Of a stretch of DNA of 64,000 nucleotides, positions 9,267 to 61,524 are shown piece after piece. Within the stretch, counting starts at the first letter, position 1. Each line of letters opens with the position of its first letter. The translations under genes and the position numbers were made by a program. The notes beneath the pieces were generated by a model. It was not told the origin of the DNA, searched no databases, and saw only the letters and a list, made by a program, of their open reading frames with translations. This DNA is from Halosimplex salinum (GTDB taxonomy: Archaea > Halobacteriota > Halobacteria > Halobacteriales > Haloarculaceae): positions 62,001 through 126,000 of the forward strand of contig NZ_QWGG01000002.1 of assembly GCF_003730195.1 (NCBI RefSeq), in the 5' to 3' direction.

Positions 9267-10214
9267 ATGGAGGTCCGTCAGGCCCGCGCGAGCGACCACG
9301 ACGACATCGCGGCGTTCACCAGCGACACGTGGGGCGACCGCTTCGACCGCGGCGACTACATCGCGGACGTGTTCCCCGAGTGGATCGAGAGCGACGGTCC
9401 CGGACAGCGCACTGTCGTCGCCGAGTCGGACGGGCGGGTTATCGGCGTCTGTCAGGTCGTCCTGCTCTCCGAGCACGAGGCGTGGGCGCAGGGGATGCGC
9501 GTGGCCGACGACGCCCGCGCCGGCGGCGTCGCCGAGGCGATGAACGGGGCCTGTTTCGACTGGGCGCGCGAGCGCGGCGCGACGGTCTGTCGGAACATGG
9601 TGTTCTCGTGGAACGTCGCCGGCCTCGGCGCCGCCCGCGGGGTGGGATACGACCCGGCCACCGAGTTCCGCTGGGCCCATCCCGACCCCGACGTCGACGC
9701 CTGCGCCGACAGCGACGGGGCGAGCGGGCTGGAAGCGGTCCCCGATCCCGACGCGGCGTGGAGCTACTGGCAGCGCAGCGACGCCGACCGCGAACTCGCG
9801 GGGTTGACGCTCGACCCCGAGGAGTCGTGGGCGCTCTCGGAGTGTTCCAGAGAACGGTTCCGCGAGGCCGCCGCCGAGACCGCGGTGTTCGCCGTCCAGG
9901 GCACCGACGGGACCTGCGGCGCCGCGTATCGGACGCGCGACTACGAACGAGAGAGCGGGAGCGGTGAGGACGACGGGGAGAGCGGGGAGACCGAGCGATG
10001 GGTCGAGTACGGCGTCGGCGCGTGGGACGGCGTCCCCGCCGCGCAGTCGCTGTTCGCCGCTATCGCTCGCGACGCGGCCGATATCGGTGCGGATCGGACG
10101 CGAGTCCTGATCCCCGAGACCGCCCGACACGTCTCCGACGCCGCCTACGCCGGCATCGCCGTCAGCGAGAACCCCGACTTCGTCATGGCCGCGGATCTGA
10201 CGGGCCGGGTTTGA
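9267..10214 (+). CDS. GNAT-family N-acetyltransferase
   Basis: 315 residues. Residues 1-150 are a GNAT domain: MEVRQARASDHDDIAAFT opens beta 1/alpha 1, and MRVADDARAGGVAEAMN corresponds to the acetyl-CoA pyrophosphate loop, followed by VFSWNVAGLGAARGVGY at the motif B position. The C-terminal half (170-315) is a second, weaker GNAT-like or substrate-recruiting domain, so this is a double-domain acetyltransferase. The substrate is unknown. Its ATG starts one base after the gatD stop. Confidence 0.72.
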   Translation: MEVRQARASDHDDIAAFTSDTWGDRFDRGDYIADVFPEWIESDGPGQRTVVAESDGRVIGVCQVVLLSEHEAWAQGMRVADDARAGGVAEAMNGACFDWARERGATVCRNMVFSWNVAGLGAARGVGYDPATEFRWAHPDPDVDACADSDGASGLEAVPDPDAAWSYWQRSDADRELAGLTLDPEESWALSECSRERFREAAAETAVFAVQGTDGTCGAAYRTRDYERESGSGEDDGESGETERWVEYGVGAWDGVPAAQSLFAAIARDAADIGADRTRVLIPETARHVSDAAYAGIAVSENPDFVMAADLTGRV

Positions 10215-10262
10215 GATCGGGAGTGGCTGTAGCCAGCACTGGAAGCGACCAGCAAACTACAA

Positions 10263-10579
10263 ACAGCGTGAAAGCCCCGACCCGCTGGACTCGGGCGGCT
10301 CGTTGCGCTCCTCGGCTTCGCCTGCGGTGCTTACTTCGCCGGCCTTCGTCCAGCGGGTCGCCCCTTTCATTCCCACCCGCACAGACTGTCGAAGCAGCCG
10401 ACACGGGTGGGAATGAAAGGGGCGGCCGGTTCGAGGTGCGAGACGACGCAAGCACCGTGGTTCGAGAGAGCGAAGCTCTCTCGTCATCACGAAAGAGCGC
10501 TTCGCGCTCTTTCGAACGACAACGGAGTGAGGAGCGCAGCGAGTCGCAGCCCTCGAACCGGTCGGGGCTTTCACGCTGT
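10263..10579. repeat. Composite inverted-repeat element (family member A)
   Basis: A 20-bp perfect inverted repeat (acagcgtgaaagccccgacc at 10263-10282, complement at 10560-10579) bounds 317 bases without a convincing gene. Inside is a second perfect 21-bp inverted repeat (10359-10379 against 10404-10424) with a 24-base loop, and a 12-bp stem (gacccgctggac at 10279-10290 against 10348-10359). It thus looks like two half elements joined head to head. The same outer ends and similar filling occur at 61323-61524. It fills most of the gap between the acetyltransferase and thioesterase genes. Confidence 0.8.
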
Positions 10580-10656
10580 ACTGAGCCACGATCACGAGTG
10601 CGGTGCTGTCTCCAGCAACGCGAGCGGTTCTATCAGACACACCCACCCATCGACCG

Positions 10657-10691: not shown

Positions 10692-11087
10692 ATGGACGTG
10701 GAGACCTTCTTCGAGGAGATGCCGTTCGCGGACCTCCTCGGGATCGAACTCACGGAGATCGACGACGGCCACGCCGAGGGACGTCTCGAAATGCGCAACG
10801 AGCTGTCGTGGCACAGCGAACGCGTGCTGGCCCACGGCGGCGTCACGTACACGCTGGCGGACACCGTCGGCGGCGCGGCGCTGGTCTCGCTGGTCGACCG
10901 ACCGGTCCCGACGGTGGACATGCGGATGGACTACCTCGAAGCGGGCACCGGCGACCTGACCGCGGAAGCGGACGTCCTCCGGCAGGGGAGCGACGTGGGC
11001 GTCGTCGACGTCGACGTGTACGCCGACGACGGTGAGGCGCATCTCGCGAGCGCCCGGGGAGTTTATAAGACCGGCACGAGCGAGTGA
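10692..11087 (+). CDS. PaaI-type hotdog thioesterase
   Basis: 131 residues, normal for a single hotdog domain. The family signature HGGVTYTLADTVGGAAL (about residues 47-63) carries the His-Gly-Gly and acidic residue of PaaI-like acyl-CoA thioesterases; the beta strands VDMRMDYLEAGTGDLTAEADVLRQG follow. It should hydrolyse acyl- or aryl-CoA thioesters in the cytoplasm. The frame extends upstream into the inverted-repeat element, but the TATA box at -30 fixes the start at 10692. The gene stands between two repeat-rich gaps. Confidence 0.85.
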   Translation: MDVETFFEEMPFADLLGIELTEIDDGHAEGRLEMRNELSWHSERVLAHGGVTYTLADTVGGAALVSLVDRPVPTVDMRMDYLEAGTGDLTAEADVLRQGSDVGVVDVDVYADDGEAHLASARGVYKTGTSE

Positions 11088-11629
11088 GGGCGAATCGTTC
11101 GATCTGGCGTCGGTGCTGGGCTACTGGTTGAAGTGACCGCAACCGCGGCACAGCGACGAAAGCTCTCGGCTCGCTTGCTAGCAGTTGATTCGACCGCGCT
11201 CGACGGCAAGCGACGAAAGCTCTCGGCTCGCTCGCTCACGGCTCGCTACGCTCCCCGTTCGCGTGTCGAGGTGCTCGCTTCGCTCGCACCTCGCTCTCGC
11301 GGTCGCTGAGCAGGATATTCTCGGTCGCTCCGCTCCCTCGAATAGAGCCTGCTCAGACGACTGAACTAAACGCGAGCGAGCCTCGCCCTTTCAGTCCACC
11401 AGGACAGCAGTGCCTCCGCACAGCACCGTAGACGGCCTCACACCTCCCCAGCCGACTCCTTCGCTCACTCCGTTCGCTCAGTCATCCACCGGAAGACTCC
11501 CTCCGGTCATCTTCCGAGCCTTCGCTCGTTTCACTCGCGAAGACCTCGCACGGTGCTGTCGCGAGACGGGACTCGCGACAGCGCGCGCCAGAAGACTTAC
11601 GCAGTGTTTCACGACACCGACCGTTCTTG
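11088..11629. other. Gene-free stretch rich in direct and inverted repeats
   Basis: No credible gene is seen. A 24-base direct repeat agcgacgaaagctctcggct(cgct) occurs at 11152-11175 and 11209-11232. Dyads include gaggtgc...gcacctc (11268-11292) and ctgagcagg...cctgctcag (11306-11356). The rest is full of short tcgctcg/cgagcga palindromes, which makes spurious proteins rich in Arg and Ser in all frames. Its style matches dispersed haloarchaeal intergenic repeats. Confidence 0.6.
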
Positions 11630-61322: not shown

Positions 61323-61524
61323 CCGCGAACAGCGTGAAAGCCCCCGAGCGCTCGTCCGGTTCCGACTCGCTGCGCTCCTCGTTCTCCGGTCACTGCGGTG
61401 CTTGCGTCGTCAGGAACCGGACGAGCACGCGTTCGGCCCGGGCGACGTAAGCACGCGAACGGAGTGAGCGCGCGCAGCGATCCCCGGACGGTCGAACGCG
61501 TCGGGGCTTTCACGCTGTTCGCGG
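61323..61524. repeat. Inverted-repeat element (family member B)
   Basis: A 22-bp perfect inverted repeat (61323-61344 against 61503-61524) includes the core acagcgtgaaagcccc shared with the element at 10263-10579. Inside, ctcgtccggttcc (61351-61363) pairs with ggaaccggacgag (61413-61425). The filler (tgcgctcctcg, cactgcggtgctt, cggagtgagcg) also resembles that of element A. It has no gene and is 202 bases long; it lies between the PhnP-like gene and the trpS leader. Confidence 0.8.

Follow-up and report, generated by a model that had tools for sequence, protein, structure and literature searches.

A dispersed haloarchaeal repeat with a conserved fold, present as a divergent pair of units in Halosimplex salinum

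The nested inverted repeat that we call element A, from Halosimplex salinum, is made up of two divergent copies of a single unit of ~140-200 nt. The fold of this unit is real, and its pairing has been kept by compensating changes, with one preferred strand, at genomic places that stay unchanged over species divergence. Because the fold is kept after insertion, a structured repeat with a function or a partner is favored over mere debris, and we lean toward reading element A as a divergent pair of a dispersed, structure-conserved repeat of Halobacteria with a putative partner, resembling the REP/BIMEs of bacteria. Dispersed palindromes are usually dismissed as transposon debris; here, the covariation, the strand preference and the slow evolution in place concern a fold kept at dozens of positions between genes throughout an archaeal class.

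Results

Element A and its neighbors

The window is the whole stretch of 64,000 nucleotides that was analyzed (C21:62001-126000), taken from the 5.07-Mb genome of this member of the genus Halosimplex (G000). The outer arms of element A (10263-10282/10560-10579) form a perfect inverted repeat of 20 bp and the inner arms (10359-10379/10404-10424) one of 21 bp; perfect inverted repeats in random 317-nt stretches from this window extended to no more than 15 bp (300 drawn, those near element A skipped, n=299 scored). The region has an RNA fold z of -12.7, with 0 of 100 shuffles equally stable. A first-pass annotation had reported these dyads together with a 12-bp stem in the left half, and all three are exact. 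Its picture of two head-to-head half elements is borne out too, the right half having a 12-bp stem of its own (10424-10435/10552-10563), and there is indeed no gene inside. It had further seen a likeness between gtgaaagcccc in the outer and atgaaaggggc in the inner arms, as though one unit had been inverted and copied. The likeness is real, but the two are better explained as the paired end motifs of one unit than as inverted copies of each other: the "outer" and "inner" arm motifs are its paired 3' and 5' ends (TGAAAGGGGC ... GGGGCTTTCA).

The left unit (10260..10400, minus strand) matches our covariance model R1 with 142.5 bits (E 7e-29 in the window) and has a type-I interior without a nested cassette; the right unit (10383..10582, plus strand; R1, 107.8 bits, E 2e-21) combines a type-I interior with a nested 62-nt cassette. 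The 5' motif of the left unit, GGGTGGGAATGAAAGGGGC (10360..10378, minus), and the identical 19-mer of the right unit (10405..10423, plus) are exact matches. Between the units, comparison of copies delimits a 24-nt spacer (10380..10403), which forms the upstream segment (GGCTG..CAGTC / ACTG..CAGCC) for both of them. The 12-bp stem, P1, joins the 5' arm GACCCGCTGGAC (10348..10359, minus) to the 3' arm GTCCAGCGGGTC (10279..10290, minus) in the left unit, with 12/12 pairs, and GGCCGGTTCGAG (10424..10435, plus) to CTCGAACCGGTC (10552..10563, plus) in the right unit, again with 12/12 pairs, one of them G.T. A motif search places the 3' motif GGGGCTTTC at 10270..10278 (minus) in the left unit and at 10564..10572 (plus) in the right. 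The nested cassette is a three-way junction, TGGTTCGA-hairpin-GTCATCACGA-hairpin-GAACGA (10458..10519, plus); its site is CG|CA in the right unit's loop, and other units have the same cassette at CG|CA as well.

Element A is flanked by genes for a GNAT acetyltransferase (9267-10214) and a 4HBT thioesterase (10692-11087), with a GatD-like asparaginase upstream. Two further occurrences lie in the window. Element B (61326..61521) is a decayed head-to-head pair without the central 19-mers, whose units R1 places at 61466-61326 (minus) and 61387-61521 (plus) with 66.4 and 47.9 bits. A unit of the GGTGGACTGAAAGGGC subfamily, with a type-II interior (CTATTC/GAATAT loop), was recognized by its motif at 11215..11400 (minus) and has an arm pairing of 10/10. 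Beside it, at 11150-11215, are tandem partial repeats of its 3' end (GCGACGAAAGCTCTCGGCTCGC x2), which resemble downstream tandem repeats in other genera.

Architecture of the unit and its modules

From the center of a pair outward, the unit reads GGGTGGGA[A/C]TGAAAGGGGC, then one arm of the stem, conserved GAAG..GACGyAAGCACCG, a hairpin that varies, GAGGAGCGCAGCGAG, the second arm, GGGGCTTTC and TGTT; the 12-bp stem is variable in sequence and the two internal loops are conserved. Our genome of origin holds 26 exact copies of GTGAAAGCCCC and 27 of GCCCCTTTCATTCCCACCC (≤3 mismatches), mostly as plus/minus pairs, with the central arms 45 bp apart in nearly every pair (44-46 in most pairs of the genus). 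Over all loci examined there were 215 motif matches, 171 of which have an arm paired at ≥10/12 positions beside GGGGCTTTC. In these 171 units, the offset of the paired arm to GGGGCTTTC is zero in all but two (169/171) and stem positions 1-10 show 92-96% Watson-Crick pairing, with 121 distinct 10-nt P1 arms; positions 13 and 14 are mostly tandem G.A/A.G (98 and 84 units, respectively). By interior, these units, all of the main end type, divide into 123 that satisfy the type-I rule only, 16 type II only, 1 both and 31 neither. The 16-mer of a second end type, CCTGGTGGACTGAAAGGGCGAG...CGAGGGCTTTC, occurs 28 times in the same genome and is present in 9 of the 145 genomes searched. The interior joined to this end type is either type I or a type II with CTATC/GATAT loops, and 13 of the 15 motif matches there satisfy the arm rule.

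Units are further diversified by insertions. The cassette of element A was found inserted at CG|CA within units, with CG|CAG or CG|CAA at 12 of 33 matches; since the cassette is a palindrome, most of its copies are counted on both strands. In Natribaculum, comparison of paralogues that have or lack it reveals a clean insertion without target duplication; a different cassette, at GACGAC|AAGCAC, gives the same picture among Halomontanus paralogues. Yet another two-hairpin insert, GTTGTCGGCG..CGCCGAC-TGCTC-GGGAGAGC..GCTCTCCC-GGTGG, occupies the base of P1 at five loci (L122, L152, L173, L192, L194). Directly upstream of the unit at L049, L052 and L116-L118 lies a conserved hairpin module, CGAGGGATGAG..GTCGGCTGGGGAGGTGTG, that looks like a separate common haloarchaeal repeat. 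In G224 (L084-L096) and G200 (L097-L103), tandem ~27-bp repeats (AATCGCCCGGTGACACAATCCACCG) precede several units, and GTAGCGAGCGGGCGGGGGCTTTC repeats with ~33-nt variable spacers follow several. GTGGGACTGAAAG may resemble the ends of haloarchaeal CRISPR repeats. At L118, L129, L158, L181, L228 and L234, units have shrunk to or nearly to GGGACTGAAAGGGGC-(0-5 nt)-GGGGCTTTC; these are units whose hairpins were deleted between short GGGGC repeats.

The fold and its preferred strand

On the GGGTGGGA[A/C]TGAAAGGGGC...GGGGCTTTC strand, the unit folds into an irregular hairpin consisting, in order, of an outer GAAAG/CTTTC helix, a G-rich internal loop, the 12-bp P1, and further short helices, internal loops and an apical hairpin. 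The inner internal loops read GACGyAAGCAC / GCGCAGCGAG, and the sequence of P1 is free. Covariation was scored on alignment A2, comprising 61 non-redundant units without nested cassettes, obtained from the 171 by filtering for type-I interior, length and redundancy (its first row is 26 nt short and lacks the 3' end). Over the 32 pairs tested, 95.4% of cells are standard pairs versus 73.8% when shuffled, and 394 cells are two-sided versus 124; two-sided change is found in 23 of the 32 pairs. Covariation amounts to 0.522, as against 0.150 in shuffled alignments and 0.05-0.07 in slid structures, a score that 0 of 500 shuffles reach. The P1 helices of the modeled units were partly selected for complementarity (≥10/12), whereas the inner helices were subject to no such selection; in helix 3, 6 of 6 pairs vary on both sides. 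The unit thus displays compensatory covariation of its helices, as a structured RNA would. The outer GAAAG/CTTTC helix is invariant in A2; two units at L128 have GGAAG/CTTCC instead, and one Haloarcula unit has the wobble intermediate GGAAG/CTTTC.

The GGGTGGGA strand contains 50 G.T against 23 A.C mispairs (p 0.002), with G.T in excess in 28 sequences and in deficit in 5. This excess marks the GGGTGGGA strand as the one that folds, and indicates that the conserved form is a folded single strand, either RNA or ssDNA. The RNA structure suggested by the first-pass annotation is therefore supported insofar as it is a folded single strand, and the covariation fits RNA and ssDNA alike. Three units, L105, L176 (2623-2782, plus) and L191 (2850-3037, minus), have a G-rich internal loop turned perfectly palindromic (GAAAGCCCC/GGGGCTTTC, or the other way round), which gives the impression that one arm served as template for the other; hence, part of the two-sided change may represent hairpin-templated correction rather than selection.

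Copies and distribution

With R1 at E up to 0.01, the genome has at least 32 units, in the form of 10 singles and 11 head-to-head pairs, in every one of which the 5' ends face each other; the number is a lower bound because 150 of 8410 first-look candidates were scored. The genome search proposed in the first-pass annotation thus found a multi-copy repeat, and the objection that it had itself foreseen, a single-copy element, falls away. The 19-mer (≤1 mismatch) is present in 8 of 8 genomes of the genus, and the 15-mer GGGA[A/C]TGAAAGGGGC in 161 of 292 Halobacteria genomes, representing 53 of 76 genera; its reversed control gave one match over all 292. Counts of the 15-mer peak at 75 (G224) and are uneven within genera: in g21 they are 0 in G031, G044 and G056, 26 in G078, 42 in G067 and 61 in G316, and in g2 they are 19, 13, 20, 0, 0 and 1. 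A scan of named stretches recovered at least 115, and all 80 among the matches listed are haloarchaeal; R1 was run on 100 of these stretches, and 98 of 117 matches were used for the exact-motif check. Matches occur in 44 haloarchaeal plasmid records. IMG/VR viral contigs gave 0 exact motif matches and the right unit had no match in INPHARED phage records, so we discarded a viral or phage carrier. Rfam 15 had 0 matches at the gathering threshold for the window and five sampled unit loci, with weak miRNA hairpin matches alone below threshold, and we found no description of the family in Rfam or in the literature searched.

Conservation in place

At the site orthologous to element A in H. aquaticum (G001), the right unit is present and the left has been deleted to a ...CTGT|GCGGGTCGGGGCTTTCACGC scar. 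Of 12 sampled copies in that genome, 6, element A included, have both flanks orthologous to copies in H. salinum. Same-locus comparison of P1 in five units (60 pairs) recovers 19 two-sided and 3 one-sided changes; a 388k minus-strand comparison with 9 apparent two-sided changes proved spurious, one extra G having shifted the register, and was left out of the count, and a seventh unit, compared by eye, has three one-sided changes, all involving G.T. In other genomes, the flanking genes of element A are ~70 bp apart without a unit (G003), a single unit directly follows the GNAT gene (G007), or other genes and no unit lie between the flanking genes (G005). The GNAT gene end in G005 reads GGGGTGGGACTGA (L329 2430-2460), possibly what is left of a lost unit, located where G007 has one.

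We traced one Haloarcula unit locus through 32 genomes of that genus, six of which align through the unit. Four of these species have the hairpin in common; among them, 38 of 702 compared sites differ in the unit (5.4%), 144 of 529 in the upstream intergenic sequence (27.2%), 63 of 270 downstream (23.3%) and 13.3% of sites at the end of the neighboring gene; this measure of in-place conservation comes from that one locus, where two of the six species have a different hairpin. These two retain the same flanks, show 10 differences over 110 unit sites and 17 over 96 upstream ones when compared with each other, and have a compensating T-A to C-G change in P1. Of nine further Haloarcula loci inspected, one (G162) has the scar GGGTGGGACTTTCTGGCTG only and eight have no unit. 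Sites without the element were found in G003, G068 and G166; such sites and the uneven counts imply that dispersal must have happened. We saw no target-site duplication at sites in Haloarcula and Halosimplex, where the empty counterparts are too diverged for base-exact ends. The first-pass annotation had proposed checking aligned copies for sharp ends and duplicated target sites; neither showed up in this comparison, and the stems vary between copies, unlike constant terminal repeats.

Helpers and gene context

A transposon with a Y1 helper was rejected on a PF01797 census of 44 genomes, which does not track copy number: the family is absent from G009, G102, G200, G274 and G143, which have 22-71 motif copies each, and has five members in G042, which has zero. 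A longer autonomous version was likewise rejected: downstream of 44 motif matches without a well-paired near partner, there was no gene-sized element at the same locus, and arm matches of 9-10/12 were found within ~320 nt. The help in trans envisaged by the first-pass annotation is compatible with everything observed, but no helper was found.

Of 138 placed units, 44 lie between divergent, 36 + 29 between tandem and 29 between convergent genes, the background being 101, 242 and 86 of 429; 22 units overlapping ORFs (some owing to over-long starts) were set aside, and those without genes on both sides were uncounted. No gene-orientation rule emerges among the 138. We found no T-run after the stems and noticed no promoter-like conservation upstream of units.

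Discussion

The steps from the fold to a function are ones that we infer. A structure-reading partner, probably a protein, would recognize the invariant loops whenever the folding strand lies open, whether within a transcript or as single-stranded DNA, and through head-to-head pairing each strand would have one unit in the folding sense. Copies would arise by rare dispersal, with putative machinery acting in trans, and then be retained; later, deletion may remove their hairpins, nested cassettes may alter them, and copies may exchange them. As a counterpoint, copy number varies strongly between congeners, which is suggestive of a mobile element. More broadly, and tentatively, the repeats may constitute a new modular class of functional structured nucleic acid (RNA or folding ssDNA), read by a dedicated structure-specific partner and kept by compensatory evolution, with at least two kinds of end loops, at least two interiors and three-way-junction cassettes.

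It is unlikely, although by no means negligibly so, that the repeat is wholly selfish, a non-autonomous element (MITE-, SMR- or PATE-like) mobilized in trans, its fold being a need of the enzyme and the resident copies idle. Such an origin would account for copy numbers of 0 to 61 within one genus, the element-free sites, the lack of a gene-orientation rule, and cassettes nested without target duplication, as PMC3119063 describes for the small mobile repeats of Haloquadratum. It accords poorly with the divergence in place of 5.4% versus 23-27% in the flanks, the half of the sampled copies common to H. aquaticum, compensation at fixed loci, the lack of visible target duplication, and the want of a Y1 transposase in the five high-copy genomes named above. 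We consider it rather improbable that pairing is kept by hairpin-templated repair (intrastrand template switching) or gene conversion between copies, with the fold unselected. The loops palindromized in either direction, the block changes at the base of P1, and the hairpin swapped between Haloarcula groups with flanks kept would be natural products of these processes; yet the G.T excess over A.C fits single-strand selection via wobble intermediates, the invariant loops are left unexplained, and it is the whole unit that diverges little in place.

A bidirectional transcription terminator or UTR stabilizer, to which the intergenic position and strong fold might point, is very improbable, as no T-run follows the stems and units occur between divergent, tandem and convergent genes alike; the termination role raised by the first-pass annotation finds no support on these grounds. 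The haloarchaeal cytoplasm is high in potassium, which would aid a G-quadruplex (GGG-T-GGG-n7-GGGG-hairpin-GGGG), and the main subfamily has four G tracts that hardly vary, though most of its units were found by a pattern that contains three of them. The first or second tract is shortened in some units, and the 28-copy GGTGGACTGAAAGGGC subfamily of the same genome has only GG, GG and GGG, which rules out the quadruplex as a general principle and makes it scarcely credible as the explanation. The structured repeat with a putative partner, which we prefer, bears on how small transposase-free haloarchaeal repeats spread, and it makes testable, in cultivable haloarchaea, which protein or process reads the folded strands, and whether as RNA or DNA.

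Bacterial REP/BIMEs are imperfect hairpins of small size that recur many times between genes, frequently as inverse pairs around a short spacer, and one of their strands is the structured one. The haloarchaeal repeat shares with them its many intergenic hairpin copies and inverse pairs (32 units, 11 head-to-head pairs), but its unit is 140-200 nt long, with internal loops that are conserved, stems that vary and cassettes nested inside, and it is not tied to a Y1/RAYT transposase (PF01797, 44 genomes). Integron attC sites offer another parallel: one folded strand is recognized via loops and bulges, the stem sequence being free. Constant loops with free stem sequence are common to both, recognition being putative in our case; unlike attC, no cassette array was noticed beside the units. 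The constant terminal inverted repeats of MITEs are not found here, the outer arms being conserved only in motif (121 P1 arms in 171 units). The description of PATEs in PMC3119063 is of palindromic, transposase-free haloarchaeal elements without target duplication. The repeat is like these and IS200-IS605 ends in the first three respects, and no target duplication was seen for it either; by that description, it is set apart in having no transposase gene in its units and no PF01797 link. The closest description in the same source is that of the Haloquadratum walsbyi SMR-A/B, of ~110 bp, with prominent inverted repeats, no target duplication and up to 54 copies, which are transposase-free, enter palindromes and have a mobilization called enigmatic there (PMC3119063). 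Compared by this description alone, the general features agree (inverted repeats, non-coding, no target duplication seen), but SMR copies of one type are commonly >95% identical with constant terminal repeats (PMC3119063), whereas the stems of the present repeat differ between copies and only its loops and end motifs are constant.
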